The notes under the pieces: generated by a model
Told to the model about the DNA's origin: nothing
What the model saw: the letters and a program-made list of their open reading frames with translations, nothing else
Databases searched by the model: none
Translations under genes and position numbers: made by a program
Assembly (NCBI RefSeq): GCF_001006325.2
Contig: NZ_LBIA02000001.1
Location: 4,341,501 to 4,405,500 of the forward strand
Origin: Afipia massiliensis
Lineage (GTDB): Bacteria; Pseudomonadota; Alphaproteobacteria; Rhizobiales; Xanthobacteraceae
DNA: 64,000 bases
Direction: 5' to 3'
Shown here: one piece after another, positions 8,782 through 28,498 of the stretch
Layout of the letters: the number at the start of each line of letters is the position of its first letter
How positions within the stretch are numbered: the stretch's first letter is position 1

Positions 8782-9426
8782 TCACACCCGAATCTCCACC
8801 AGCGGGATTTTCGGGATCGCTCCCGCCGCGAAGGCCGACAGATCGACCTCGAGATAATCGGTATCGAACCGCACCGGCACGTCGAACAGATAGCCTGCCG
8901 TCACCGCCTCGCCGCTCGCGGGAATGTGCCCGCCGAGAAACGTCACAACGCCGGTCGTATGATCGCAGGTGAACGCAGTGCCGGACGCGACTTCGCTGCC
9001 CGCGACCGCAACGCGCACGCCGCCCGGCACCGGCTTGGCGACGTTGCGCGTGTAAGGCGCATAGGTGCTGCCGTAGGTCTTGATCAGTTGAAACGCCGCG
9101 CGCGTACCGTCTCCCGCACCCAGCGTCTGATCGAGCGGCGAGATGTCCGACGCAGGCGGCGCGGAGGAATGATCAAGCCGGTCGCGCCAGCGAAAGCCAT
9201 AAAGCTGCCCTCGCCGCTCCTCGAAAAACGCCACCACCTCCTGCAAGGCGTCGAGCGTTTTTACGCCGTACCCGGCATCGAAGCGGCGGCGCGAATGCGC
9301 CCAGCGCGCGTTGCGTTCCTCCCGCCCGGAGCCAAAGGTAATAATGTCAGTGCGCCGCTCCGGCCCGCCTGCGCTTTTCAGCGCGATGTCGAGCGGAAAC
9401 AGAATTTCGTGAAAGCTGGCGGGCAT
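8782..9426 (-). CDS. GTA distal tail protein, DUF2460 / TIGR02217 (g12-like)
   Basis: 214 residues, standard length for the family. The family opening FHEILFPLDIALKSAGGPER is clear, followed by RRFDAGYGVKTLDALQEVV and YGFRWRDRLDHSS; the end has DVPVRFDTDYLEVDLSAF. In RcGTA this protein forms the ring closing the tail tube above the hub. The ATG at 9426 is preferred because homologues start with the same hydrophobic MPASFHEI. The 450 bp upstream hold an opposite-strand zinc-ribbon gene and a palindrome before g11. Confidence 0.92.
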   Translation of the reverse strand: MPASFHEILFPLDIALKSAGGPERRTDIITFGSGREERNARWAHSRRRFDAGYGVKTLDALQEVVAFFEERRGQLYGFRWRDRLDHSSAPPASDISPLDQTLGAGDGTRAAFQLIKTYGSTYAPYTRNVAKPVPGGVRVAVAGSEVASGTAFTCDHTTGVVTFLGGHIPASGEAVTAGYLFDVPVRFDTDYLEVDLSAFAAGAIPKIPLVEIRV

Positions 9427-12315: not shown

Positions 12316-12636
12316 CTACGACACCCGTACGTCCGCATCGATCTCGATGAAGCGCCGGTCGTCGCGCTCCCGGATCGCAACGATCCGATAGATCCGCGCG
12401 CCGTCGCTGAAGCGATGCTGCAGCGTGAGCGAAAGATGGCTGCGCAGGACAATGCGATAGCTTTGCGTCACGCCGTCGGCGTCCGCCTCCACGTCCCGGC
12501 GCGCGGCAAGCGGCGTCACCTGCGCCCACACCGTGGCGAATGTCGTCCAGGTGCGGACCACACCGCCCTGGTCGTCGGGTGTCTCGATGGGTTGCTGGAT
12601 CACCAGCCGTGTCTTGAGTTGTCCGGGATCGATCAT
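12316..12636 (-). CDS. GTA head-tail adaptor (g7-like)
   Basis: 106 residues from the ATG at 12636 (MIDPGQLKTRLVIQQPIE), which overlaps the g6 stop in an ATGA. The phage head-tail joining family pattern is clear: DDQGGVVRTWTTFATVWAQV, then LAARRDVEADADGVTQSYRI and the final RRFIEIDADVRV. It acts as a head-closure ring between connector and tail terminator. Length is typical. Confidence 0.92.
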   Translation of the reverse strand: MIDPGQLKTRLVIQQPIETPDDQGGVVRTWTTFATVWAQVTPLAARRDVEADADGVTQSYRIVLRSHLSLTLQHRFSDGARIYRIVAIRERDDRRFIEIDADVRVS

Positions 12637-13199
12637 AGCGACAGCACCCGGTGCGACGAGATCATGGCATTGACGCTGGCCGGCATCATCGCGACGCTCG
12701 AACCGATGGCTATGAGACCCCGGTTCTCGTACCAGTGGGCCACCAGCATGCGGATCGCCTGCCGCAGCGTCTGCGGGACATCGCTCGCGGCTCCGAAGCC
12801 GACTTCGATATCGAGTTCGATACCTGCGACGCTGCGCCCCGGCACAGGCAGCGACCACGCCGGTGCGGCGAGGACACCCGCTGCGGCATCGACCACGAAG
12901 ATCTCGGAATCGATCGCACTTGCCTCACCCGCTGCATCGAACACGCGAACGGCGGTGAGTGCACGCAACGGTCCGATCCGCGGCGCGATGCGTCCGCCGT
13001 CGGGCCATCGATCCAGCACCAGTCGCCAGGTCTGCGTGATCAGGGCATTGCGCGTCAGCGCCTCGACATGGTTGCGCGCGGCGGACACAAGCGACGTGAT
13101 GATGGCGTCATCGTCGCCGTGTTCCACCCGCAGAAAGCTTTTTGCATCGGCAAGCGACAGCGGCTCGGCCGCCGGCGCGGTAACGAGATATGCGGGCAT
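12633..13199 (-). CDS. GTA head-tail connector (g6-like, phiE125 gp8 family)
   Basis: 188 residues. Family signatures are APAAEPLSLADAKSFLRVEH, DDDAIITSLVSAARNHVEAL and TRNALITQTWRLVLD near the N-terminus, with RQAIRMLVAHWYENRG close to the end. It docks to the portal in the head. In a canonical GTA cluster it directly follows the capsid gene; here about 5.3 kb of unrelated genes intervene (13.2-18.5 kb). Confidence 0.92.
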   Translation of the reverse strand: MPAYLVTAPAAEPLSLADAKSFLRVEHGDDDAIITSLVSAARNHVEALTRNALITQTWRLVLDRWPDGGRIAPRIGPLRALTAVRVFDAAGEASAIDSEIFVVDAAAGVLAAPAWSLPVPGRSVAGIELDIEVGFGAASDVPQTLRQAIRMLVAHWYENRGLIAIGSSVAMMPASVNAMISSHRVLSL

Positions 13200-13313: not shown

Positions 13314-13370
13314 AGCAAATGTCTGGTTTGACGGTTGACAAAACATGCGGGCCGAGGCTCAACCTTGCGG

Positions 13371-14138
13371 ATGATCTCGCTTCCTCGCCTCTGCGCCGCC
13401 CTCATCGTTACATTTGCATTCGTGCAGCCGTCGCATGCCATTACCGGCAGTCGCTCTGCGCCGAGCGTCGGCGTTGCGCAATCCATCGTCACGGTCGTTG
13501 CCGCGGGTGGCGGCGTCTGCACCGGGACGATGATCGCGCCGAACATTATTCTGACCGCCGCGCATTGCATCGCGCCAGGCACGGCCAATCGCGTGATCGA
13601 CTACTCGACGAAGCCGCCGCAACTGATCGCGCCGCAGCAGGTCGCAGTGCATCCCCGCTACAACGCGCAATCCATCGCGGCCCATCGGGCGACGGCGGAC
13701 GTTGCGCTGCTGCGCCTGTCCGCGCCGATGCCCGGCAAATCGGCCGCGCTTCTCGGCGTGCCGCGCATTCCCTTTACGCCCGTGTCGCGCTTCACTGTCG
13801 TCGGCATCGGATCGACGGTTGCAGGAAGCGACTCCGGCGTCGGCACGGCCCGCGCCGCGCCGCTCGCTGTGACCGGCCAGCCCGGCACCCTGCAGGTGCG
13901 CCTGGTCGATCCGCAAACCCAGAACAAAGCTGCGGGCATGGGCGCCTGCACCGGAGACTCGGGCGCACCCGCATTCGAAGATCAGGATGGCCGCAGCGTC
14001 ATTGTCGGCGTGGTGAGCTGGTCGACGGGCGCGAACAATTCCGCGGGCTGCGGCGGCCTCACCGGCGTGACCCCGCTCACATTATATAACGACTGGATCG
14101 TAAAGACCGCGCGCAGCTGGGGCGCGGCGATTCCGTAA
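13371..14138 (+). CDS. Secreted trypsin-like S1 serine protease
   Basis: 255 residues from the ATG at 13371. A signal peptide runs to about residue 23 (MISLPRLCAALIVTFAFVQP, then SHA). The S1 catalytic triad is visible: His65 in LTAAHC, Asp110 in TADVALLRL, Ser197 in GACTGDSGAP. The cysteines around the His and Ser are those expected for disulfides. A periplasmic or secreted endoprotease is the likely role. It is a host-type gene on the plus strand inside the interrupted GTA cluster, flanked by palindromes; nothing ties it to particle function. Confidence 0.9.
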   Translation: MISLPRLCAALIVTFAFVQPSHAITGSRSAPSVGVAQSIVTVVAAGGGVCTGTMIAPNIILTAAHCIAPGTANRVIDYSTKPPQLIAPQQVAVHPRYNAQSIAAHRATADVALLRLSAPMPGKSAALLGVPRIPFTPVSRFTVVGIGSTVAGSDSGVGTARAAPLAVTGQPGTLQVRLVDPQTQNKAAGMGACTGDSGAPAFEDQDGRSVIVGVVSWSTGANNSAGCGGLTGVTPLTLYNDWIVKTARSWGAAIP

Positions 14139-14245
14139 AGTTAACTGGCTACCTCCGCAGTGCATCTCGGGTTCCCGCGCCGAGGCCTGACAAACGACGG
14201 GCGATCCCCTACTCTCCGATTCATGAAACAAAACCGGAGACCATC

Positions 14246-14656
14246 ATGATTTCACGACGCGGTATCATTGGACTTCTCACCACATCGTTGCTGCTGCCCG
14301 CCGCAAACGCGGCGGCGCGCGACACGATGCTGATGGGGACCGTGAATTATCGCGAACGGATGGCGCTGCCGCCGAACGCGTCCGTGCTCGTGCAACTCGT
14401 CGATGTCTCCCTCGCCGACGCGCCGGCGCAGGTGATCGCGCAAGATCGCATCACCGGCGCCACCGGCAGTCCGATCCCCTACCGGCTGCGCTTCGACATC
14501 ACGAAGATCGAGCCGCGCCGCACCTACGCACTGCAGGCCCGCATCTCCGACGGCGATCGCCTGCTGTTCATCAATACCACCCGCCACGAGGTCTTCGCAG
14601 GCGGGCGCAACAACACGCGGATTCTCGTGCAGCGCGTCAGCGATCAGCCGCGTTAG
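14246..14656 (+). CDS. YbaY/YscW-family secreted protein
   Basis: 136 residues. A signal peptide is seen (MISRRGIIGLLTTSLLLPAA, then NAAA), with two Arg before the hydrophobic core. The mature part MGTVNYRERMALPPNASVLV, then VQLVDVSLADAP and a C-terminal FAGGRNNTRILVQRV matches the YbaY-type beta-sandwich (YscW family; many members are lipoproteins). There is no lipobox Cys, so it is probably periplasmic. GGAGACCATC lies before the ATG. Function of the family is largely unknown. Confidence 0.8.
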   Translation: MISRRGIIGLLTTSLLLPAANAAARDTMLMGTVNYRERMALPPNASVLVQLVDVSLADAPAQVIAQDRITGATGSPIPYRLRFDITKIEPRRTYALQARISDGDRLLFINTTRHEVFAGGRNNTRILVQRVSDQPR

Positions 14657-14691
14657 AGCATGATTCATGCCCATTGAATCGAATCTCACCT

Positions 14692-14752
14692 CGCTCGTCC
14701 CCGCGTAAGCGGGGACCCAGACTGGATTCCCGCTTTCGCGGGAATGAGCGGA
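14692..14752. repeat. Palindromic intergenic element, type B (short form)
   Basis: GTCCCCGCGTAAGCGGGGAC followed by ATTCCCGCTTTCGCGGGAAT, the same two hairpins as at 9.8 kb. Confidence 0.85.
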
Positions 14753-14801
14753 GAATGTGTTTTCAATTCAGGTTAATTCCATTCTAGCTTCGCCGACGGA
14801 T

Positions 14802-15092
14802 ATGACGATTCATCAGGCTCTCGCATACATTCTTCGATCGACCGCGGTTGCGGCGTTGTCCGTTACACTGACGGCGACCGCGCATGCGCAGCAGATGGAC
14901 ACTAAAACGCCGCGGCAACGCCCGCAGGCGGCGAAGCCGGATCACACCGCGAAGCAGCAGAAACCGCTCACACGTCCGCGCACCGCCACACCCTGTTCTG
15001 AATTCGGCGCGGGCTTCGTGCGCATGCCGGGTTCGGACAGTTGCGTCCGCTTCGGCGGATCGGTCGGCATCGGTGTAGGTACCGTGCCTTAA
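14802..15092 (+). CDS. Small secreted protein with a porin-like cysteine motif
   Basis: 96 residues from the ATG at 14802. A signal peptide covers about 30 residues up to TAHAQ. A Lys/Arg/Pro/Thr-rich linker follows, then a C-terminal segment CSEFGAGFVRMPGSDSCVRF GG that resembles the start of mature Rhizobiales porins (C..yG.gF.yiPGtdtCi.igG). It has no barrel. It could be a relic or a stand-alone family; I do not assign a function. Confidence 0.6.
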   Translation: MTIHQALAYILRSTAVAALSVTLTATAHAQQMDTKTPRQRPQAAKPDHTAKQQKPLTRPRTATPCSEFGAGFVRMPGSDSCVRFGGSVGIGVGTVP

Positions 15093-15123
15093 GGCACGAT
15101 CCCGCATCGTCGGGATCGGTTTC
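15083..15123 (+). terminator. Hairpins after the porin-motif gene, possible terminator
   Basis: A perfect GTGCCTTAAGGCAC palindrome overlaps the stop codon. It is followed at 15097-15118 by CGATCCCG-catcgt-CGGGATCG and a short gtttct. The T-run is weak. The genes on either side converge. Confidence 0.45.
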
Positions 15124-15170
15124 TGGCGCTTATAAAGATTTGCGCGACAACGTGTAACGATCCGCCTGGT

Positions 15171-15410
15171 TCAGTAACGCTGGCCGCGATGCCGATACTT
15201 CCTGCGCGGATGCGCCGACTGCGAATGCGACTGGGTGTAGGCCTCCCGGTACCGCTTGCGCGATTCCTCGAGCGCCCGCTGATAGCCGGGCGAGCCCATA
15301 ATAGTCGCCGCCACCCCGCCGCGCGCTGAGGCGGGGGTGATGTGGGAGACCGCGGTCGCGATCAGGAGAAGAAGAAAGAAAACTGCGGCCCGCTTGGTAC
15401 GACAGTTCAT
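15171..15410 (-). CDS. Small secreted basic protein, unknown
   Basis: 79 residues from the ATG at 15410 (MNCRTKRAAVFFLLLLIATA, then VSHITPASA), an evident signal peptide. The mature part is short, basic and Arg/His/Tyr-rich (SPGYQRALEESRKRYREAY; ending RKYRHRGQRY). Codon use resembles neighbouring host genes. No family recognised. Confidence 0.6.
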   Translation of the reverse strand: MNCRTKRAAVFFLLLLIATAVSHITPASARGGVAATIMGSPGYQRALEESRKRYREAYTQSHSQSAHPRRKYRHRGQRY

Positions 15411-15537
15411 GTTCGGCCTCTGCGCACGCCAGTTCCGGGTACCAACCTTGCATCGGCCTGAATGTTCCGCGGCGGCAACATAAAGGCTCAAACCCCAGAA
15501 AGCGATCAGGTGGCGCAACGCGCGGAAAGCCAGTACA

Positions 15538-16389
15538 TCAACCGCCGAATTTATAATTCAAGCCGATCCGCACGATGTTCAGGTTGGTCGTGAAGTTTGC
15601 TGAATAGGATGCCGGCGTCGATCCAGGCGCCGCCGTTACTGCAACCACGTTCACAGTCTCCTTGAACTGCGCGAAAAGATACTCGCCCTTCACGGACCAT
15701 TTCTGCCCAAGCGCGTATTCAAGCCCGCCACCCGCCGTCCAACCCGGAGTAATGCCGTTAGACGCCCCGGAAAAACACAGATCTGGAGCTGCGTTAAGGC
15801 TGCCGCAAGAGAACGTGTAGACCACTCCATTCGGACCAGCCAATCCCCCAGCGAAGCCTGTGCTAGTGACGGTGGACGCTGCGTTGTTCAGATGAGCGTA
15901 GGCAAAGCCGCCGGTGGCGTAGATCAGCAGCCTGTCGTTGGCCAGATAACCGAGCCGGGCGCGCACCGTGCCGAAATAGTCGATACTCTGGCTTGCCGAG
16001 GTCGATACTTGCCCGAAGAGATACGGAGTCGTGCCTCTCCCATCGATGCCCGCGCCCTGAAAGTCCGCTTCAAAGCCAGCCACCCATCTCGGGTCGAACT
16101 GATAATTGTAACCGACCTGAATGCCGCCGAGCGCTCCGGAGGAGCGATTGCGGTCGCCGTTGGCTGAGATCGGGAAGAAGTTGGGGGCCGAAAATATAAA
16201 CGACATAAGAGCATCGTTCGGCGCGTAGCCAACATCCGTGTTGGCCCAACCACCACCCACATTGAGACCGGCATACCAGCCACTCCAGTTTGACACCGGC
16301 GCTGGCGGCGCCTTGCGTATGAGATCGGCACCTTGCGCGGTGGATGCCGCCCCGAGCGTCAAGATTGCGGCGATCAACAAGTGCTTCAT
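15538..16389 (-). CDS. Outer-membrane beta-barrel protein (Omp25/31 / OmpA-like)
   Basis: 283 residues. The signal peptide ends near residue 21 (MKHLLIAAILTLGAASTAQG). A family opening follows: PVSNWSGWYAGLNVGGGW. Repeated amphipathic strands (VGYNYQFDPRWVAGFEADFQ; GTVRARLGYLANDRLLIYAT; FAYAHLN) lead to the C-terminal strand IVRIGLNYKFGG with the aromatic or glycine end typical of Rhizobiales Omp25-like barrels. Role: small outer-membrane barrel of host type. It is on the GTA strand but unrelated to the particle. Confidence 0.92.
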   Translation of the reverse strand: MKHLLIAAILTLGAASTAQGADLIRKAPPAPVSNWSGWYAGLNVGGGWANTDVGYAPNDALMSFIFSAPNFFPISANGDRNRSSGALGGIQVGYNYQFDPRWVAGFEADFQGAGIDGRGTTPYLFGQVSTSASQSIDYFGTVRARLGYLANDRLLIYATGGFAYAHLNNAASTVTSTGFAGGLAGPNGVVYTFSCGSLNAAPDLCFSGASNGITPGWTAGGGLEYALGQKWSVKGEYLFAQFKETVNVVAVTAAPGSTPASYSANFTTNLNIVRIGLNYKFGG

Positions 16390-16589: not shown

Positions 16590-16709
16590 TCAACTCGCCG
16601 CGAACTTGACCAGCTTGATGGCCTCGAAATCCTGGACGCCGCCGCCGACGCGCTTGGTGGTGTAGAACAGCACGTAGGACTTAGCGAAATACGGATCGCG
16701 CAGCACGCG
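16590..16709 (-). pseudogene. Remnant: last about 40 codons of a second HK97-type capsid gene
   Basis: Reading on the minus strand the fragment ends LVKFAAS followed by TGA, exactly like the intact capsid gene at 18520. Over about 39 residues only a few differ (FAKS for SAKP, FEAIKL for FDAIKL). Similarity stops abruptly at about 16709, next to the stop of the DUF2019 gene, and also stops downstream of the shared stop codon. It marks an endpoint of a recombination or insertion that brought in the toxin/immunity pair. Confidence 0.9.
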
Positions 16710-16714
16710 CAACC

Positions 16715-17089
16715 TTAAGTTGGAATATATCGTCCTTCATCAACTGCACGAAGCATCTGAGACGCGTTCATCGCAATCGGATACTCCTTCCGATCCTTGA
16801 TCAATTGGAGAACATCTCTTGCTTCACGAGGCGCCAGCGCGAGCGTGGCTATCGCGGCCTTAAAACGTACGGTCGGGTTGGGATGAGTATAAAGCGGCAG
16901 CAGCGCGCGGCGTTGATCGCCCTCGCGCGATTTTAACTGTGCAGCCACTTCTTCCATCTCGCCGTACAAACGATTGTATTCAGAACTTCGAATATTTTCC
17001 AACGCCGCATTCTGTTTGACCGCGATGTCAGCGAACAAGGCTACGAGATCTTCAACACTTGCCGTTTCAAGTTCTATCCGGCGACTCAT
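16715..17089 (-). CDS. DUF2019 protein, probable immunity protein
   Basis: 124 residues with the DUF2019 pattern: LETASVEDLVALFADIAVKQ, YNRLYGEMEEVAAQLKSREG, then DQRRALLPLYTHPNPTVRFK and a final LRAVDEGRYIPT. The fold is HEAT-like helical. The start overlaps the stop of the toxin-like gene in an ATGA, so the pair is co-translated. The immunity role is inferred from this gene order and from DUF2019 proteins being common partners of toxin-like proteins. Confidence 0.8.
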   Translation of the reverse strand: MSRRIELETASVEDLVALFADIAVKQNAALENIRSSEYNRLYGEMEEVAAQLKSREGDQRRALLPLYTHPNPTVRFKAAIATLALAPREARDVLQLIKDRKEYPIAMNASQMLRAVDEGRYIPT

Positions 17090-17991
17090 GGCTTGAGAAC
17101 TCCCGCGTCGATCAAAGCTTCTATTCCAACACGTCTCCGTTCGCTTGAATCCTTATCTCTCAGATAGTCTCTTGGAGTTAATCCTCCAAACTCGTCGCTA
17201 CGCGTGCTGAACCACCCGGAAATCTCATAATGCTTTAGGGTAGGAATTCGCACCTTGTTACTCGGATCGTCAATTTCGCCCCACGTGAATCCTAACCGTC
17301 TCAGCAGAGTCCGTTCTTCAATGTGGTGATCCTCATAGCCTGGCTCGCTGGCCGGACTGACCCTGCTTTGCAGCTCTTCTAGAGTCTTTGGTGGGTCACT
17401 ATACGACTTCATTGCTGAATCGTAAGACTTTAACCACTCGATCTGGTCCTTCGCCCCGAAGAAGATGTCGACCGCGGGAGCATATCGGCCAACCCGGTTC
17501 ACCCAGCGCGCGATATCCCAAACAACCTTCATTCTATCTGCCGGGGATTCCGGGCGCTGCAGTGGAATCTCGGACGGCTCAAGCGGGGGCCCTTGGTTGT
17601 GACCGATGCCTAGGCCGTCGCCTTCCGGCATATCACCCGCAAGCCGCGCATAATCGCTATTGTCCCGATCCCGCGGCGCGATCTGAAACAGCCCGAGATT
17701 GCCGATCTCGCTCAAATCGAAATTGATACTGCCCACCGGTCGGGCGGTGGCGTTTGCCGCAGGATTGCTTCCATCCCCCCCACCGTCCGTCCATTGCCCA
17801 CCATCGGGATTGCCCGCCGGCACACGCGGCTGGCTCGGGCTGTATTTGCGTTCCAGCGCTGGAAAGACGCTTGCGACATCGGTGCCGGGTTTAAGAAAGC
17901 GCGCAGCATCCGGGCGTATCCAGCGATACGCGTCCGGACGCATCCATCGCGCTTGCTGAGCGCGCGTGTATGCATCATCGCGTGCGGGCAT
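17086..17991 (-). CDS. Putative GTA-locus toxin: RVPAGNPDGGQW pretoxin domain plus HNH-like C-terminal domain
   Basis: 301 residues from the ATG at 17991. N-terminal region (1-70): MPARDDAYTRAQQARWMRPD, then RWIRPDAARFLKPGTD and YSPSQPRVPAGNPDGGQWTD. This leader is shared with the gene at 20.8 kb and, as I recall, with many Rhizobiales toxin-like proteins. A linker has GIGHNQGPPLEP. The C-terminal 90 residues hold GYEDHHIEERTLLRRLGF, then SNKVRIPTLKHYEISGWFST, a His-His / Asn / His arrangement typical of HNH-superfamily nucleases, and end with ALIDAGVLKP. The partner DUF2019 gene follows directly. Nuclease activity and packaging into GTA particles are hypotheses. Confidence 0.72.
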   Translation of the reverse strand: MPARDDAYTRAQQARWMRPDAYRWIRPDAARFLKPGTDVASVFPALERKYSPSQPRVPAGNPDGGQWTDGGGDGSNPAANATARPVGSINFDLSEIGNLGLFQIAPRDRDNSDYARLAGDMPEGDGLGIGHNQGPPLEPSEIPLQRPESPADRMKVVWDIARWVNRVGRYAPAVDIFFGAKDQIEWLKSYDSAMKSYSDPPKTLEELQSRVSPASEPGYEDHHIEERTLLRRLGFTWGEIDDPSNKVRIPTLKHYEISGWFSTRSDEFGGLTPRDYLRDKDSSERRRVGIEALIDAGVLKP

Positions 17992-18198
17992 GCGAAGTGA
18001 CCTATGAAAATAGAAACTGGAATCGTCTGCGGGGAAGCCGACTGTCTGCCAGCGTCCCCTATTCACTCGAAGCATTCGCGTGGTCGAATGCCGGGTTCCT
18101 TCATTCGGTGTTCATGCACGCGACGCGAGGATGATCTTGGCGGCCTCGTCATGCGGAACTGCGGCGGCGCCACTGTCGAGCCATGAGGAGATTGCGCG

Positions 18199-18465
18199 AT
18201 GAAAAAGATCCTGTTCAGCCTTGTCGTTGCCCTGCCTGTCGCGTTTGCGGCATCACAGGCCCCGGCGCTGCCGCTCCATTCAACAAGTCCCTTAATCAGC
18301 CACACCACATCGTCAGATATCGTTGAAGTCAAAGGCGGCCGTGGCAAGGGTCACGGCTGGGGTAAGCACCATGGCTTCAAGCGGCATGGCTGGAGTCGTG
18401 GCCGCAAAGTCGGTTGGCGCGGCCGAGGCTGCCCTCCGGGACATTGGAAAAAGGGCTACTGCTAA
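18199..18465 (+). CDS. Small secreted Gly/His/Arg-rich protein
   Basis: 88 residues. Signal peptide MKKILFSLVVALPVAFAASQ, then APALPL; the mature part is rich in Gly, His, Lys, Arg and Trp (GKGHGWGKHHGFKRHGW) and ends GCPPGHWKKGYC with two cysteines. GAGGAGATTGCGCG precedes the ATG. Such GH-rich secreted proteins are common in Bradyrhizobiaceae, function unknown; metal or nucleic-acid binding is possible. It lies on the opposite strand between the capsid gene and the toxin cassette. Confidence 0.72.
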   Translation: MKKILFSLVVALPVAFAASQAPALPLHSTSPLISHTTSSDIVEVKGGRGKGHGWGKHHGFKRHGWSRGRKVGWRGRGCPPGHWKKGYC

Positions 18466-18519: not shown

Positions 18520-19809
18520 TCAGCTCGCCGCGAACTTCACCAGCTTGATGGCGTCGAAGTCCTGGACGCCACCGCCGACGCGCTTGGTGGTGTAGAACAG
18601 CACATAGGGTTTTGCGGAGTACGGATCGCGCAGCACGCGTACGCCCAACCGATCCACGATCAGGTAGCCGCGGCGGAAATCGCCGAACGCGATCGACAGC
18701 GAGTTCGCGCCGATGTCCGGCATGTCCTCGGCCTCAATGAGAGGGAACGTCATCAGCGATGCGCGTCCGCCCGCCTGCGCCGGCGGCTGCCACAGATAAG
18801 CGCCGCCGGAGTCCTTGAACTTGCGGATCGCCGCCTGCGTCTTGCGGTTCATCACGAAGTTGCCGTTCTGGCGATAGCCCGCTTTCAGCGCGTAGATGGT
18901 ATCGACCAGCACATCGGACGGATTGCTTGAGGGAAACGCGCCCGCCGATCCGCTCGCGACATAGCCGAGATTGCCCCAGGTCCATGAGCCGTTGGCCACC
19001 GCCGTGTAATTGAGAAAGCCCTTCGGCTTGTTGCTGCCGTCGCCGTTGACGAAGGCGGCGCCCTCCTGCACCGCGAAGGTCAACTCGACTTCGGAGGCGA
19101 TCCACTCGTCGATGTTCACCGCCGAGTCGTCGAGCAGCGTCGCGGTCGCGGCCGGCATGGCGTAAAGCTCCATCGCCGGAAAGCTCAAGGCATCGAGCGT
19201 CGGCGACGTGGTCTGCGTGCGCGTATCGGTCTCGCCGACCCAGCCGGTCGCGGGGCCCGCGGTCATGAACGGCTTCTTGTAGACATTGCCGGAGATCTCG
19301 CGCACGCTTGAGATGGCGCGGATCGGCGAGATCGCGGCGAGCCGCGATCCGATCTCCTGTTCGAGCTGCGCCGGCACCAGATAACCGCCGTCGGCATTGG
19401 AGCCGACCGACAGCGCCTTGGTCTCCATCAGGCGCAGACCCGAACTCTCGCCCTGGCGCACATAGACATCGAACGCACTCTTGTGCTCGCGCGCCGACGC
19501 GTCAGTGAAGCGCACGCGGCCGTCGTCGAGTCGGCCTCCGTCAAGCAAGGGGCGCGCGCTCTTCAATGCAAGATCGTCGATGCGTTTCATCTGGGCGTCG
19601 AGCGCGCCGTTGATGCGGTCGACCTTCTCATCGAGCAGCACGTCGGCGCGGCGGCCGACGGCGGCGAGTCGCTCGTCGTTCGAGGCCTTGAATTCCTCGA
19701 ACATCGCCATGATGGCGTCGTGCTCGCCGCGCGCGGCGGACGAGATGCCGGATTTATGCTCCGGCGCGGTGTCGGTGATGTCGTAGTCCATGTTCTTGTC
19801 GAAACTCAT
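18520..19809 (-). CDS. GTA major capsid protein, HK97 fold (g5-like)
   Basis: 429 residues. The N-terminal part to about 120 is a charged helical scaffold-like delta domain (EHDAIMAMFEEFKASNDERL). The HK97 capsid part begins near KALSVGSNADGGYLVPAQLE, with TWGNLGYVASG and AFGDFRRGYLIVDRLGVRVL towards the end. AGGAGA stands 7 nt before the ATG. The delta domain would be removed by the prohead protease encoded 1 kb upstream. In place of a direct junction with the protease and connector genes, both sides carry toxin-like cassettes. Confidence 0.95.
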   Translation of the reverse strand: MSFDKNMDYDITDTAPEHKSGISSAARGEHDAIMAMFEEFKASNDERLAAVGRRADVLLDEKVDRINGALDAQMKRIDDLALKSARPLLDGGRLDDGRVRFTDASAREHKSAFDVYVRQGESSGLRLMETKALSVGSNADGGYLVPAQLEQEIGSRLAAISPIRAISSVREISGNVYKKPFMTAGPATGWVGETDTRTQTTSPTLDALSFPAMELYAMPAATATLLDDSAVNIDEWIASEVELTFAVQEGAAFVNGDGSNKPKGFLNYTAVANGSWTWGNLGYVASGSAGAFPSSNPSDVLVDTIYALKAGYRQNGNFVMNRKTQAAIRKFKDSGGAYLWQPPAQAGGRASLMTFPLIEAEDMPDIGANSLSIAFGDFRRGYLIVDRLGVRVLRDPYSAKPYVLFYTTKRVGGGVQDFDAIKLVKFAAS

Positions 19810-19929: not shown

Positions 19930-20307
19930 TCAGCGCAGCGTGAGTCCGGATCGCGCTTCGCTGTCAGTATCGATCAAGCGCAATGAGCTTGCTTCGTAGA
20001 TATGACGCGAAATCTTCACGGCGAATCTGACTCCGTCAATTTCCTGTATCAAGTCAGCCGAAATATCCTGCAAATCGTAAGCGGCAAGGTCGAGCCCTGC
20101 TCCAAGATCGACCCACGGTCCTCCAAGCGGCTGACGTACAGCGCGAGAATCCGACCAATCGAATACGATCATCTGCGGACGGCCCTGCGAGCCGGCCTCC
20201 ACCTGTGCAGCGAACTCCCGCGCCAGTTCAAGCGCCGTTTGCGAGATTTTCACGGCGCCGGGCGGCGCGAAGAAGCTGCGAGAAGGGGGAGCGAATTTGC
20301 CGGCCAT
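19930..20307 (-). CDS. Unknown protein of the second cassette, possible immunity protein
   Basis: 125 residues, no family recognised. It has a Pro/Phe-rich start (MAGKFAPPSRSFFAPPG), a helix (TALELAREFAAQVEAG), then MIVFDWSDSRAV, DLGAGLDLAAYDL and FAVKISRHIYEASSLRLID. The gene begins 42 bp after the toxin-like frame at 20350 and ends before a terminator-like hairpin. By its position it matches the DUF2019 gene of the other cassette, so immunity is the working guess, made only from gene order. Confidence 0.55.
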   Translation of the reverse strand: MAGKFAPPSRSFFAPPGAVKISQTALELAREFAAQVEAGSQGRPQMIVFDWSDSRAVRQPLGGPWVDLGAGLDLAAYDLQDISADLIQEIDGVRFAVKISRHIYEASSLRLIDTDSEARSGLTLR

Positions 20308-20349: not shown

Positions 20350-20838
20350 TTATCGAAATGGGTCGCGAATGATTCCGGGAGGGCTATGACCAAGCCCGGA
20401 TCGCCTGATTGTCTGTCCGTTCGCGCAGTCATAAAATGCGCTGAACTCCTTCAGTCCGAAGTAATTGACCGTTCGGGAAACTCCGCTCAAAATACACACA
20501 GGAATAATGTTCGCAAGCTGCGTCCCTGGCGCCCAGAAATTATCCGGCGTCGCATCCGAGATGACGCGCGGGTCATCGATGCCAACATTTCCCATCGGAA
20601 TGGCAAGCGTTCCTCGCCCGTCCGTCCATCGGCCGCTCTCGTCACCGTTGCCCGCTGGTACGCGCGGCTGGTTGGGGCTGTATTTGGTCTCGACAGGAAT
20701 GAGCGCCGGATAAACCGATGCCGGGTCCGTGCCGGGCGCAAGGAAACGCGCAGCGTCGGACCTAATCCAGCGGTGTGCATCGGGCCGCATGAAACGCGCG
20801 CGCTAATGCACGTCGAAAGCATCCAGACGTTGCGTCAT
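20350..20838 (-). pseudogene. Second pretoxin-family gene, with an amber codon at codon 12
   Basis: Counting from the ATG at 20838 the frame reads MTQRLDAFDVH, then TAG (20803-20805), then RARFMRPDAHRWIRSDAARF. It aligns without gaps to the leader of the 17.99-kb gene (MPARDDAYTRAQ QARWMRPD), where the amber position is Gln. The ATG shares bases with the TGA of the protease gene (TGATG), which supports this start. Later motifs are YSPNQPRVPAGNGDESGRWT and a short C-terminal domain (about 85 residues) that is not HNH-like and that I do not recognise. Restart at the ATG at 20790 is possible and would give 146 residues. Confidence 0.7.
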
Positions 20839-21491
20839 CAGCGCGCCTCTGCACTGGACGACGCAACTCCACGCAACGCGTACTTGCGGCCGGCGCGGGT
20901 GTCCAGCCGGATTAGAGCCGGACTCCCGCGCCGGGCGAGCGGCGCCGGTGCGTCCGCGGCACCACCCGAACCCCGCCACTCTTGTTCAGCGCGCGTCCGC
21001 TGCGGCGACAGCTTTGGCTTGGGGAATGCCTGCTTCACCGCGCGGACGCGCGCCCCCGCCAGCAGCGGGAACGTGACGATCGAAATCTCCCAGAGATCGA
21101 CCTGATACAGTTTGCGGATGCGCGTCTTCGGATCGATCTGGCCGCGCACGGTGCGATAGCCGATCGACAGGCCGTCGATGGCGCCCTGCTCCACCAACGC
21201 ATAGAGTTCGCGTCCGCGCGCGACATCGGGGATCAGCCGCCCCCTCGCCCACAGGCCGCGAAAGTCCTCATGCAGATCGAGCCAGACGCCGACCGGTTCG
21301 GCGGGATCGTGCTGGAACAGCATCGGGATCTTGCGCAGGCCGCGTTGCGCCAGCGTGCGCGTGAATGCGCCGGGCATCACCATGTCGCGCGCCTGATCGA
21401 CTTCGCCGAACAGGCTGGCATAACCTTCCACCGTGCCGTCGCTCGCGAGCGACACGGTGGATGTCGATGAAATGGGCGCGTGCATGGGCAT
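20838..21491 (-). CDS. GTA prohead protease, HK97 family (g4-like)
   Basis: 217 residues. The family core is clear: GTVEGYASLFGEVDQARDMV, PGAFTRTLAQRG, the catalytic His region MLFQHDPAEPVGVW and the Ser in GLSIGYRT, followed by LYQVDLWEISIVTFP. The C-terminal 60 residues are Ala/Arg/Pro-rich and less conserved. The enzyme would remove the capsid delta domain during head assembly. Its stop overlaps the start of the toxin-like pseudogene. Confidence 0.93.
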   Translation of the reverse strand: MPMHAPISSTSTVSLASDGTVEGYASLFGEVDQARDMVMPGAFTRTLAQRGLRKIPMLFQHDPAEPVGVWLDLHEDFRGLWARGRLIPDVARGRELYALVEQGAIDGLSIGYRTVRGQIDPKTRIRKLYQVDLWEISIVTFPLLAGARVRAVKQAFPKPKLSPQRTRAEQEWRGSGGAADAPAPLARRGSPALIRLDTRAGRKYALRGVASSSAEAR

Positions 21492-22292: not shown

Positions 22293-23465
22293 TCACCCCA
22301 GCCGATCCCCATCGGCCACCGGCGCATAGCCGGTCGCCTCGCGCTTCTCGTTCAGCGTCAGGAACGGCGCATTGGCGACGCGATCCCACAATGCTGCACG
22401 GTCGTTCGCCAGCGCGTCGATCCGGTCGGTATCCACCACAATGCGCAGCTCCCCGCCGAACTGCGGCGACAGCCATTGCGCCAATGAGCTGCCGACGCGC
22501 GAGGCCAGCGGCAGGATCGTCTGCCGCCAGAACACCCGATTGGCTTCCTGGAAATTCGCGTAGGTGTTGTCGCCGGGAATACCGAGCAGCATCGGCGGCA
22601 CGCCGAACGCCAGCGCGATCTCGCGCGCGGCGGAATTCTTGGCCTCGAGAAAATCCATGTCCTTCGGCGTCAGCGACATCGCCTTCCAGTCGAGTCCGCC
22701 TTCCAGCAACAAGGGCCGTCCGGCATTCACCGCGCCCTGATAGGTGTCGGTGAGTTCGCGCTTGAGCCGGTCGAATTGTGAATCCGACAGCACCGCGCCT
22801 TCCGGCCCGGAATAGACCAGCGCGCCGGACGGCCGCGCGGCGTTGTCGAGCAGAGCCTTGTTCCAGGCCGAGCTGGCGTTGTGCGTGTCCACGGCGACGG
22901 CTGCTGCCTCGATCGGCGCGAGGCCATAGTGATCGTCGAGCGGATGAAAGAATGTCAGATGCAGGATCGGCGGCACGTTCGACGCAAGCTGATCGAACCG
23001 CACGCTGCGCCCTGCGACGCTGTACTCGTAAGCCTCCGCCCAGCCGTCATGACCGGGCACCACCTTCATGCGATCCGGCCGCAGCGCGTGAAGCTCGCGC
23101 ACCTGGTCGCCGAGCGCGACGGCCTCGACATAGGCATTGCCGGCGAGCAGCATGTGCGCGTACAGCGCCTCGAAGAAACTCGCGCCGTCCTGCCGCGCGT
23201 TGGGTTTCGTCAGCAGTTGCGAAAGCGGATGCCCGTCCCTCTCCTGTGCGCCTTCATAGAGAAGGAAGCCGCACGACGCGGCGTTCTCCGCGATGAGGCG
23301 CACCGCGCGATGCACAATGGCGTTGGTGAGATAACCCTCGCGGGCCAGCGCCGCATAATCGCGCGGCGTCCACCGCGCCCGCCCGCCGCTCTCGAACGCC
23401 AGCACCTGCGCCGTGCGGCTGGCCTTGGCTTCGGGTGCGCGGAAAAGCTTTTTGAAGTTGAGCAT
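22293..23465 (-). CDS. GTA portal protein (g3-like, HK97 portal family)
   Basis: 390 residues from the ATG at 23465 (MLNFKKLFRAPEAKASRTAQ); a longer frame starts in a palindrome and was rejected. Family signatures: LTNAIVHRAVRLIAENAASC, YVEAVALGDQVRELHAL, the HLTFFHPLDDHYGLAPIEAA motif and FGVPPMLLGIPGDNTYANFQ. The dodecameric portal is the DNA gate of the head. Downstream of large terminase, as in RcGTA, but separated from it by a type B palindrome. Confidence 0.94.
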   Translation of the reverse strand: MLNFKKLFRAPEAKASRTAQVLAFESGGRARWTPRDYAALAREGYLTNAIVHRAVRLIAENAASCGFLLYEGAQERDGHPLSQLLTKPNARQDGASFFEALYAHMLLAGNAYVEAVALGDQVRELHALRPDRMKVVPGHDGWAEAYEYSVAGRSVRFDQLASNVPPILHLTFFHPLDDHYGLAPIEAAAVAVDTHNASSAWNKALLDNAARPSGALVYSGPEGAVLSDSQFDRLKRELTDTYQGAVNAGRPLLLEGGLDWKAMSLTPKDMDFLEAKNSAAREIALAFGVPPMLLGIPGDNTYANFQEANRVFWRQTILPLASRVGSSLAQWLSPQFGGELRIVVDTDRIDALANDRAALWDRVANAPFLTLNEKREATGYAPVADGDRLG

Positions 23466-23517
23466 GGCTGTCCGTTCTCCGGGGAGAAAGAGAAACGCGG
23501 GTGGCATCATAATCAGG

Positions 23518-23642
23518 GTCGTCCCCGCGAAAGCGGGGACCCATACTCCCTGAACCGTCATTGTGGACGCAGCCGTTTCGGCGCACCCGCTATCATCACA
23601 TCAATCGGTGGTTATGGGTCCTCGCTTTCGCGAGGACGACAT
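23518..23642. repeat. Palindromic intergenic element, type B (long form)
   Basis: GTCGTCCCCGCGAAAGCGGGG and CCTCGCTTTCGCGAGGACGAC arms with ACCCATACTCCCTG and CGGTGGTTATGGGT inside, between the portal and large terminase genes. Confidence 0.9.
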
Positions 23643-23671: not shown

Positions 23672-25042
23672 TCACAACCCCCGCACCCGCGGCGCCGCGC
23701 GTGTGGTGAACGTCAGCGACGCAATCGCCCACACCAGCGCATCGAGCCGGTCGGGCGATCGGCCCGACGACAAACCGGACGGCCCGAAGTCGCACATCTC
23801 GTCTTCAAGCGCGGAGAACATGCCCGCATGTTTGACGCGGCCTTGTTCATAGAGTGTTGCGACGGGCTCGGCGCGCAGCCACTTTCCCCGTGACGCACGG
23901 ACTGAGACCACCGGCACGCTCGCATCCACTTCATTAATGACCGAGCGCACCATTTCGCCGCCCTGGTTGACTTCGGCGACGAGTGCATCGGCTTCAAGCC
24001 GCCGCCACAGCGCGATCGCTTTCGCCGCCCACACCGATGGCGTCGCCTGCGACACCGTCTCGTCGGCGATCACGTAAATCGCGCCCTCGCCCGTGATGCC
24101 CGCCGCGACAATGCCGCAGGCATCGGCGCGCTTGCCGGATGACGCCGGCGGATCGACCGCGACCACGATGCGCGCCAACGGCGGTGCATCACTCACGCGG
24201 CAGCTTTCTATCAACATCCGCGACCACAGCGCGTCGGGCCTGTCCTCGATGATCTCGCCGTTCAGCTCCTGACGCCCGAGCCGCGTGTCCTTGTAGCGCG
24301 CGAGCACGCCCTTCAGAAACGTCGGCGCGAGATGATAGGCATTCGCCTGCGTCGCCGCACGAGTCACAACACTCGTCGGCTCCAGCATCAGCCGCTTGAT
24401 CAGCGCGGTCGGCCGCGGCGTCGTCGTAATCAGTTGCCGCGGCTGATGGCCGAGACGCAGACCGAACTGCAGCATGTCGAACGTCGCCTCTGCATAGCGC
24501 CACTTCGCCATCTCGTCCGACCAGGCGCAGCCGAACTGCGGGCCGCGCAGGCTTTCGGGATCCTCCGCCGAGAACGCATAGGCCACCGCGCCATTGCTCC
24601 ATTCCAGCCGCCGCCGCGACGAGGTCCACACCGGGCGCTCATCGCGACGATGCACAGCGAGTAATCCCGACACTCCTTCGATGACAACTTCCCTCACGTC
24701 GTGCTCAGTCTCACCCACGAGCGCGATGTTAGTCACGGGTGCATCCGCTAATGGCGGAATCCCGAGCGCCTGTGCCCTCACCCATTCCGCGCCCGCGCGA
24801 GTCTTGCCTGCCCCTCGTCCACCGATCAGCAACCACGTCAGCCACGGCTGCCCATTTGGCGCGAACTTCGGCGGCACCTGATGATCGTGCGCGAACACAT
24901 CCCATCGTGCGAACAGCAGCTCCAGCTCAGCCCGCCTCATCCCCTCCAGCAGGAAGCGGCGCTGCGTCTGCGACCAGGCCTTCCAGGCGGCGCGAAAGTT
25001 CGCGGCGGAATTCGTCGAGGTCTCGGGGAATGGCGTCGTCAT
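23672..25042 (-). CDS. GTA large terminase (g2-like)
   Basis: 456 residues from 25042. The ATPase Walker A is GGRGAGKTRAG (Lys80), a Walker B-like FGCAWSDEMAKW follows near 175, and the nuclease domain begins near IVVAVDPPASSG with conserved acids. The motor packs DNA into heads; in GTAs it packs random host DNA. An alternative start at 24940 (MRRAELELLFARW) would overlap the small-terminase end by only 14 bp and has GGAGGGG directly before it; family members often begin just before ELELLFARW, so that start is at least as likely. Confidence 0.94.
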   Translation of the reverse strand: MTTPFPETSTNSAANFRAAWKAWSQTQRRFLLEGMRRAELELLFARWDVFAHDHQVPPKFAPNGQPWLTWLLIGGRGAGKTRAGAEWVRAQALGIPPLADAPVTNIALVGETEHDVREVVIEGVSGLLAVHRRDERPVWTSSRRRLEWSNGAVAYAFSAEDPESLRGPQFGCAWSDEMAKWRYAEATFDMLQFGLRLGHQPRQLITTTPRPTALIKRLMLEPTSVVTRAATQANAYHLAPTFLKGVLARYKDTRLGRQELNGEIIEDRPDALWSRMLIESCRVSDAPPLARIVVAVDPPASSGKRADACGIVAAGITGEGAIYVIADETVSQATPSVWAAKAIALWRRLEADALVAEVNQGGEMVRSVINEVDASVPVVSVRASRGKWLRAEPVATLYEQGRVKHAGMFSALEDEMCDFGPSGLSSGRSPDRLDALVWAIASLTFTTRAAPRVRGL

Positions 25043-26967: not shown

Positions 26968-27213
26968 ATGACACCCCAAGAGAGTGTGCTCGATGCGGTT
27001 CTGCGGGCACGAGGCATTCTGGCCGAGTACATCGAGCCAGGCCCACGCGATTGCGCTCAGACACTGAGCCGGCTTTTTGTGATCTTCGACGACGAGAAGC
27101 TGACGACTGCCATCAACATCCTGAGTCTGGAAACGGTCGGCGCGACGATGGCCTCTGCTGATGCGGCTAAGCCCCCACCCACCTCTCCTCCTTGTAGTCG
27201 AACCACCGGCTGA
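26968..27213 (+). CDS. Small conserved protein, unknown
   Basis: 81 residues from the ATG at 26968 (GTGGAGATCC upstream). It begins MTPQESVLDAVLRARGILAE, then YIEPGPRDCAQTLSRLFVIF, a pattern I recall in short Bradyrhizobiaceae proteins. The last 20 residues (PPPTSPPCSRTTG) are low-complexity and overlap the 3' end of the RES gene by 47 bp, so the natural C-terminus may have been replaced when the toxin-antitoxin pair arrived. Confidence 0.65.
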   Translation: MTPQESVLDAVLRARGILAEYIEPGPRDCAQTLSRLFVIFDDEKLTTAINILSLETVGATMASADAAKPPPTSPPCSRTTG

Positions 27214-27862
27214 AGCGCTTGCCGTCCCATTCATATTGCAGGTGCCGCTCCTGCATCGGCACGCCGACGACATCCGGCCAGAATGCCGCGATGCATGAGC
27301 CGCCAGCGTCGCGCACGCTCGGATAGACGATGCCGTCACTGCCTCCGTCGCGGAGGCCAGCCGCGAACGGCCGACTGTGCGTGTAGCTCTCGCTGTCCAG
27401 GATCAGCCGCCTCAACCTGTCGTCGAGCTTCGTCACGTCGTGCAGCGTGGCGTTCACGTGGCCCAGCAGCACGCGCATGTCCTCGCGGCGCGGCGGGTCA
27501 TCCGAGTCCGCCGCGAAGCGCGCGAAGTGATAGCCGGTTTCCCTGATCGCGGTGTGGAGCGTGCGCGCGGCGTAATAGACGCCATAGCTGCCGTCCGAAA
27601 AACGCGAGCCGTTGCGGTTCACATGGGTGAACGGCGCCATCACCCACGATGCGTTCGGCCCGGTCACCCGCCGCTCCGGCGGCACCAGCGCGATCTCGCC
27701 CGCCTCGTCGCGCAGGCGCGGATTGGTCGCCTGTTCAAGCTCGGTCAGCACGTCCCACACGGCGGGATCATCCGAGACCCGCTCGAACAGCGCGATCGGC
27801 GGATAGCGCGACGCGATGATGCGCCACGCCTCGCGCCAGCGCACCCGCGAGGTGGCTGTCAT
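27167..27862 (-). CDS. RES-domain toxin (NAD+-degrading type)
   Basis: 231 residues from the ATG at 27862. RES-domain features: Arg in ALFERVSD (28), SRFSDGSYGVYYAARTLHTA, then the Glu in IRETGYH (108) and the Ser-containing GGSDGIVYPSVRD. RES toxins hydrolyse or phosphorolyse NAD+ and pair with Xre-type antitoxins. The partner gene is directly upstream; the 147-bp gap contains a palindromic element. The start further upstream would translate the palindrome and was rejected. Confidence 0.9.
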   Translation of the reverse strand: MTATSRVRWREAWRIIASRYPPIALFERVSDDPAVWDVLTELEQATNPRLRDEAGEIALVPPERRVTGPNASWVMAPFTHVNRNGSRFSDGSYGVYYAARTLHTAIRETGYHFARFAADSDDPPRREDMRVLLGHVNATLHDVTKLDDRLRRLILDSESYTHSRPFAAGLRDGGSDGIVYPSVRDAGGSCIAAFWPDVVGVPMQERHLQYEWDGKRFSRWFDYKEERWVGA

Positions 27863-27909
27863 ATGACAGCCCGGCTGAATGTACAGCCAATCTGCACGTG
27901 CTCCCATTT

Positions 27910-27993
27910 CGTCATTGCGAGGAGCAATTGCGACGAAGCAATCCAGTCCTTTCCAGATAAAAACTGGATTGCTTCGCTTCGCTCGCAATGACG
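27910..27993. repeat. Palindromic intergenic element, type A
   Basis: CGTCATTGCGAGGAGCAATTG and the matching CGCTCGCAATGACG arm, with inner AAGCAATCCAGT/ACTGGATTGCTT, inserted between antitoxin and toxin genes. Confidence 0.9.
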
Positions 27994-28009: not shown

Positions 28010-28408
28010 TCACGACCACGGCGCGCGGGCGGCATCGACATAGGCGCGGACCGCCGCGAGATCCGTGACGTCGCCTGCGGTCATCCTTGCGAGAGGAGTC
28101 TGTCCCGCGAAAGCGCGGTTCGGGCGCAGCACCCAGCCGTCGGCGAGCGCGGCGTCGGAGTAGACGATCTGCAGCGCCTTCCAGATGCCGGCGACGTAGC
28201 CGATCCGGCGCAGCGTATCGTCCGGCACGCGCGCAGCCTTGCCGCTCTTCCATTGAAAGAACGTGCGCTCCGCGGGATTGCCGAGGATGCGCCGCGCGTC
28301 GCCATTGCCGATGCCCCACCGGGCCATGATCCTGAAGAAGCCTTCCAGCGCGAGGCCGTGGCGGTCGGAAGGAATAATATCCTGTAATGTCTGCGGTTTT
28401 GCAGTCAT
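28010..28408 (-). CDS. Xre/ParS-type antitoxin of the RES pair
   Basis: 132 residues from the ATG at 28408. An N-terminal HTH-like region (FFRIMARWGIGNGDARRILG, FFQWKSGKAARVPDDTLRRI) is followed by the MbcA/ParS-type toxin-binding segment (GIWKALQIVYSD, ADGWVLRPNRAFAGQTPLAR). These proteins neutralise RES toxins and usually repress their own promoter. The promoter-like repeat at 28.5 kb lies about 100 bp upstream. Confidence 0.88.
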   Translation of the reverse strand: MTAKPQTLQDIIPSDRHGLALEGFFRIMARWGIGNGDARRILGNPAERTFFQWKSGKAARVPDDTLRRIGYVAGIWKALQIVYSDAALADGWVLRPNRAFAGQTPLARMTAGDVTDLAAVRAYVDAARAPWS

Positions 28409-28498
28409 GTGCCTATCCTCTGCAATCTTGCATAAGATAGGAACCTTGCCTGTGAGCGTCAATGGCTCACCTGGCCCGTGTCAGGGCCGGAAAACACA

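Follow-up and report, generated by a model that had tools for sequence, protein, structure and literature searches.

What is a predicted toxin gene, coupled to a predicted immunity gene, doing among the head genes of a gene transfer agent (GTA)? This question is raised by a stretch of 64,000 nucleotides from the genome of Afipia massiliensis (contig NZ_LBIA02000001.1, positions 4,341,501 to 4,405,500 of the forward strand), hereafter called the window, whose own numbering is used for all window features below. An initial annotation of the window had described a protein with an HNH-like C-terminus whose gene is linked to a DUF2019 gene inside a GTA cluster. We consider it probable that the window contains two polymorphic toxin-immunity cassettes, this pair among them, located behind head genes of a resident RcGTA-type GTA, whose head would carry the toxins and whose immunity proteins would protect kin.

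The toxin gene of the pair (17086..17991, minus strand) encodes a protein of 301 amino acids (aa) with 833 homologues at E ≤ 0.001. Its N-terminus is formed by a 74-aa leader (17770..17991, minus strand; alignment A1), which consists of an Arg/Trp-rich part and the motif KYSPSQPRVPAGNPDGGQWT, and its C-terminus by an HNH-like domain (17086..17400, minus strand), a predicted nuclease toxin with invariant H-H-N-H residues and a structural model of pLDDT 96.8. An ATGA overlap couples the gene to the DUF2019 gene (16715..17089, minus strand; PF09450, E=6.5e-39), which encodes a predicted immunity protein, and the pair is bordered by a remnant of a capsid 3' end (16593..16730, minus strand), 46 codons corresponding to capsid residues 384-429 with 83% identity in tblastn. 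Both the coupled pair and the adjacent remnant had been noticed in the initial annotation, and the reading frames, the Pfam match and the tblastn alignment uphold them. The leader-toxin frame is open further upstream, where a start at 18075 would yield 329 aa; the start at 17991 was chosen because its methionine is shared across the aligned homologues (at least 90% of 52 leader-toxin sequences). The complete protein matched no Pfam family at E ≤ 1, and hence contains no MuF domain. Furthermore, no match was obtained for the leader in Pfam, PHROG or NCBIfam, or for the HNH-like C-terminus in Pfam, PHROG, NCBIfam or PADLOC.

The single HNH system of the initial annotation turned out to be part of a polymorphic toxin set. 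A second cassette had been overlooked; it lies between the protease and capsid genes, and the capsid gene thus separates it from the HNH cassette. Its leader-toxin open reading frame (ORF; 20350..20802, minus strand; leader part 20611-20802) has 83 homologues, some of which end in RNAse_A_bac or Ntox44 C-termini instead. The second leader starts at an ATGA overlap with the protease stop (20802-20840, minus strand) and is split after 11 codons by an in-frame TAG, and the ORF reopens at an ATG at 20790 to give 146 aa. Its partner gene (19930..20307, minus strand) encodes a predicted immunity protein of 125 aa without a Pfam match, and the same downstream family accompanies all 4 of 4 members of this toxin group. 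Clear leader copies in the 4.495-Mb genome are restricted to these two, with two further matches at E 0.3-0.4. As judged from the sequences, the leader is a carrier for polymorphic toxins, with a constant N-terminal part joined to many unrelated C-terminal domains.

The 74-residue leader (A1) was searched against 248 genomes of the family, with matches of at least 60 bits regarded as strong, while cassettes were found by hidden Markov model (HMM). Strong matches numbered 70, in 48 genomes, and 66 of them were located at most 8.6 kb from a homologue of the window's capsid gene (median 1.0 kb); the remaining 4 lie on contigs without a capsid match, at start coordinates 530-1435. The full leader is thus almost restricted to the vicinity of GTA clusters, as the initial proposal demands. 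A GTA-type capsid gene is present in 148 family genomes, 45 with a strong leader nearby and 103 with none. The nearest upstream head gene at 135 leader positions, redundant loci included, is the protease in 52, the capsid in 51, the portal in 23, terL in 5 and g6 in 1, with none in 3. The window copies follow the capsid and protease genes and do not share the placement directly behind the portal that is a trait of MuF toxins. In leader-free clusters, protease and capsid genes can touch (e.g. L055, L057 and L060).

Beyond the family, the full leader was confined to its own genome at E ≤ 1e-12 among 297 genomes of the order, and was found at E ≤ 1e-8 in 8 of 289 genomes of the class, the 7 others matching only partially, from position 33 on. 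Named phages and plasmids contained no leader match, and two motif-containing queries retrieved a single phage record without annotation (18 residues, E=4), along with five that matched in the portal part only. Uncultured viral contigs do contain leader or motif loci, and four of the best (L152-L155) resemble the same GTA clusters. An origin of the leader from a head protein was rejected, with hhalign probabilities of at most 0.21% against terL, portal, protease, capsid and g6. The bare motif, lacking the Arg/Trp-rich part, also occurs outside GTA clusters. One such locus (L051, 8232-10303) comprises a bare-motif HNH toxin followed by three DUF2019-family genes, with metabolic and signalling genes around it; another (L047, 6213-11931) contains an HNH and DUF2019 pair, with a Tlde1-domain gene and an IS-type integrase nearby.

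At other alphaproteobacterial loci, the motif and a toxin are fused in frame to head proteins themselves. Fusions to the portal were identified at L101, L117, L119, L132, L145, L156, L157, L187, L204, L216 and L220, and at L068/L112, where the portal gene itself is split; fusions to the prohead protease were identified at L104, L113, L120, L160, L179, L188 and L194, and some of these fusion loci are redundant copies of one locus. All 10 fusion ORFs that were scanned contain a portal or S78 protease domain, and the toxin was named by Pfam in 2: L117 combines Phage_portal with Colicin_E5, and L104 a C-terminal piece of Peptidase_S78 with RNAse_A_bac. Both the portal and the prohead protease function in or on the head, which makes these fusions the strongest pointer to toxins that travel with particles. 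The proposed connection of the toxin-immunity role with the GTA is thereby strengthened with respect to its linkage to the head, through the in-frame fusions and the known toxin domains behind the same motif. In Phyllobacterium and similar viral contigs (L104, L120, L160, L179, L188 and L194), whole or partial protease copies are arranged in series, several of them fused to different toxins; these array clusters could be either GTAs or prophages.

Base composition also connects the leader with the head genes. Among cassettes whose leader scored 80 or more and whose locus includes a capsid gene, the GC content of the leader exceeds that of the toxin tip in 37 of 37 cassettes and is not different from that of the capsid (mean GC: leader 67.4, capsid 66.8, tip 52.6, downstream gene 53.4). 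Purifying selection acts on the leader, whose median dN/dS is 0.24 (149 of 171 pairs usable); in the HNH and DUF2019 sets, divergence is too high to give firm dN/dS estimates (1 of 105 and 8 of 91 pairs usable, respectively). The GC contrast and the selection on the leader together suggest that the carrier shares the composition of the cluster and that toxin and immunity genes look swapped in. These results bear on the view that the head region is simply a hot spot where insertions are tolerated, with the toxins delivered otherwise (by a type VI secretion system (T6SS) or plain lysis) and the link to the head due to recombination, not packaging. The bare-motif HNH and DUF2019 pairs outside GTA clusters, including that of L047, would fit such a view, as would unrelated genes in the capsid-g6 gap, such as those for an outer membrane protein and trypsin; the near confinement of the full leader to GTA clusters, its capsid-like GC content and the in-frame fusions to portal and prohead protease argue against it and make it unlikely.

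The toxin tips are highly diverse. After trimming, 217 C-termini clustered into 63 groups, of which the largest, with 59 members, looks mixed. Pfam toxin domains among 93 C-termini from head-gene loci comprise RNAse_A_bac (10), MafB19-deam (3), Deam_C (3), Cytotoxic (1) and Colicin_E5 (1); from loci without recognised head genes, 95 of 116 C-termini were scanned. Behind the same motif are thus found domains of the colicin-E3, colicin-E5, CdiA-CT RNase A and deaminase types. In the HNH-like domain, all 52 sequences have a pair of neighbouring His residues, an Asn and a further His beyond them, with D/E before the His pair (alignments A6 and A7 used 51 of 120 listed homologues), so that the HNH residues, whose loss from most homologues would have spoken against the initial proposal, are retained. 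These residues include the [ED]H...H...H pattern that passages of PMC3482391 give for HNH/EndoVII (Tox-EHHH-like) toxins. The model of the domain yielded weak structural matches by VIA, HNH enzymes among them, no match in Foldseek at E ≤ 0.001 and, by sequence, no match in the Protein Data Bank (PDB). The C-terminus encoded in the window is a predicted HNH-like nuclease toxin.

The initial annotation had asked for the leader next to DUF2019 genes in clusters of relatives. Of 21 HNH-group toxins with an ORF downstream, 20 are indeed followed by a DUF2019-family gene, 17 of them with a 4-base overlap. In several small toxin groups, including that of the second cassette of the window, all 4 of 4 members are followed by a partner from a family particular to the group, and partner genes are mixed in the toxin groups of 59 and 20. 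Families recognised among the 82 downstream ORFs scanned (of 88) are DUF2019 (18), Imm1 (3), Imm-NTF2-2 (1) and CdiI_2 (1). DUF2019 shows weak HEAT similarity, and HEAT proteins are listed among immunity proteins in passages of PMC3482391. A relative of solved structure is 2i9c from R. palustris (E=1.2e-26). The downstream partners look like immunity proteins and are predicted to function as such, which provides the DUF2019 family (structure 2i9c) with a likely role.

Short coupled gene pairs of this kind might also represent intracellular toxin-antitoxin or phage-exclusion modules that act on infecting phage or addict the cell to the GTA cluster; modules of these types often employ HNH and RNase toxins. 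This reading appears quite improbable: none of the four window proteins matched PADLOC, the toxin domains are of exported types (CdiA-CT RNase A, colicin E3/E5 type), and passages of PMC3482391 present variable tips on an unchanging N-terminal carrier as typical of toxins that are exported.

Partial head-gene pieces, numbering 58 in the head-gene loci with contig-end cuts and split genes included, may record the turnover of cassettes. Thirty-eight of the 58 are located within 2.6 kb behind a leader ORF and are mostly C-terminal parts of the head gene preceding the cassette, which corresponds to the displaced modules with core-gene pieces of polymorphic toxin systems. In Rhs and contact-dependent inhibition (CDI) systems, older modules, displaced together with a piece of the core gene, are left downstream as orphans after a new arrival. 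By analogy, the remnants fit a repeated arrival of units made up of head-gene 3' end, carrier, toxin and immunity gene, with older modules left downstream. The capsid remnant of the window is also present at the Afipia birgiae locus (L034; 88% DNA identity). No clear donor emerged for it, as its DNA identity to all 12 capsids compared is similar (83-87%), and recent exchange at the capsid 3' end found no support in a silent-site test of 20 capsids of the genus, in which 4-fold site identity was 77% and 70% in the last two segments of the gene and 59-87% in the others, one 6-site segment aside. Because this test was negative and the remnant has no clear donor, we can only infer the route of cassette gain. 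At L061 (3972-9282), the interval from the capsid gene to g6 contains two capsid 3' remnants as well as a second terL-like gene. That the HNH gene is a homing-type selfish nuclease spreading into cassette-free capsid 3' ends, with the capsid duplication as its footprint, would suit the remnant behind the cassette and the fact that phage HNH genes are often homing enzymes, but the same kind of carrier and remnants accompany RNases, deaminases and colicin-type domains, a homing gene would not be expected to have a constant partner, and we give this idea hardly any credence.

The cluster that houses the cassettes is encoded on the minus strand and includes genes for the large terminase (g2, terL; 23672..25042; named by position and cluster homology, with homologues in the same place in relatives), portal (g3; 22293..23561; PF04860, E=1.3e-90), S78 prohead protease (g4; 20838..21491; PF04586, E=4.8e-40), HK97 major capsid protein (g5; 18520..19809; PF05065, E=9.4e-90; TIGR01554), head-tail connector (g6; 12633..13199; PF05135, E=1.7e-13) and a distal tail protein of the Rcc01695 family (g12, DUF2460; 8782..9426; TIGR02217, E=3e-91; PF09343), in addition to a tail tube gene and a Gp84_N/BR0599 protein gene. 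By its conserved head-tail gene content and order, and by the Rcc01695-family tail protein (TIGR02217) that marks it, the cluster is classified as RcGTA-type. The HNH pair lies in the interval between capsid and connector genes, as initially stated, but not directly between them: an opposite-strand ORF precedes the toxin gene and non-GTA genes precede g6. This ORF (18199-18465, plus strand) encodes 88 aa with a hydrophobic start and a Gly/His/Arg-rich end and has no Pfam match. The gap between the capsid remnant and g6 (13335-16389) contains genes for a trypsin-like protease, a YscW-domain protein and a beta-barrel outer membrane protein, and extra genes in the capsid-g6 gap are also present in related clusters. 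Just upstream of the GTA cluster, the window encodes a RES-domain toxin (27167-27988, minus strand) and an Xre/MbcA/ParS-type antitoxin (28010-28462, minus strand).

From this arrangement we infer packaging, release, entry into recipients, killing and protection. The leader, with its Arg/Trp-rich part and KYSPxQPRVPAGNxxGGQWT motif, probably brings the toxin into or onto the GTA head, a task that in other lineages would fall to the portal or prohead protease itself. Strand and position make co-expression of the toxin with the head genes likely, although in the window the opposite-strand ORF separates the capsid and toxin genes, and leader or fusion toxins would be built into or onto heads during GTA production. 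The immunity protein, here DUF2019, would shield the producing cell until lysis, after which particles or lysate could take the toxin to neighbours, sparing kin with the same immunity gene. The 3' end of a head gene would be the entry point for new toxin-immunity modules, whose arrival would leave pieces of head genes behind. A weak point concerns entry into recipients. In colicins or CdiA, a middle part helps the toxin across. Uptake of RcGTA DNA requires ComEC and ComF, as described in passages of PMC10883770, and for this reason the toxin may reach the periplasm only, unless its middle part helps it to cross. Since the toxin might stop there, it may instead be set free with the lysate and act like a bacteriocin.

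GTAs are mostly viewed as altruistic DNA shuttles, and their upkeep is hard to explain since producers lyse. In Afipia, Rhodopseudomonas, Nitrobacter and their kin, the GTA might, as we tentatively suggest at somewhat less than even chances, serve not only to shuttle genes but also as a weapon that discriminates between kin and non-kin, with heads carrying diverse polymorphic toxins via the leader, random host DNA packed in the same particles spreading matching immunity and cassettes to relatives, and non-kin being poisoned. Homology at the 3' ends of head genes would then allow new cassettes to spread. Should toxins travel in heads or lysates and kin possess the immunity gene, GTA release would become a competitive act of direct benefit to the lineage, and such a role would help to explain the selection that keeps a costly, lytic GTA. 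The prohead protease and the new leader would join the known toxin carriers, and the motif QPRVPAGNxDGGQWT offers a sequence handle for finding head-borne toxins in uncultured phages and GTAs.

The cassettes share features with several known systems. As described in passages of PMC5576092, MuF toxins of temperate phages likewise have the toxin behind a constant N-terminal part, are located in the head and packaging module next to the portal and are proposed to be delivered by particles. Contrastingly, the proteins reported here lack a MuF domain and use a new leader, the portal or the prohead protease as carrier; they belong to RcGTA-type clusters of alphaproteobacteria instead of Firmicutes, occupy sites behind the protease and capsid genes and are accompanied by head-gene remnants. 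Portal-fused or capsid-packaged phage effectors, the polyvalent proteins of PMC5512222, carry enzymatic domains (PBECR RNase and others) on portal or MuF proteins and are predicted to be packaged and injected, according to parts of that text, in which the term gene transfer agent is absent. They differ from the exchangeable, immunity-paired cassettes described here, with their prohead-protease fusions and colicin/CDI-type tips. With CDI and Rhs polymorphic toxins, as covered in passages of PMC3482391, the cassettes have in common a constant carrier, a variable tip, a cognate immunity gene and some toxin and immunity families, but their carrier is tied to GTA head genes and not to a CdiA or Rhs protein. 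The cluster itself shares head-tail content and order with the RcGTA and RcGTA-like clusters treated in parts of PMC11409702 and PMC10883770, and the word toxin is absent from the text of both. Titles, abstract openings and passages of the literature, with few subscription papers and no preprints among them, contained no report of toxin-immunity cassettes in GTA head clusters. Head-borne polymorphic toxins as such are known from MuF proteins, and what would be new is their placement in GTA clusters and their carriers.
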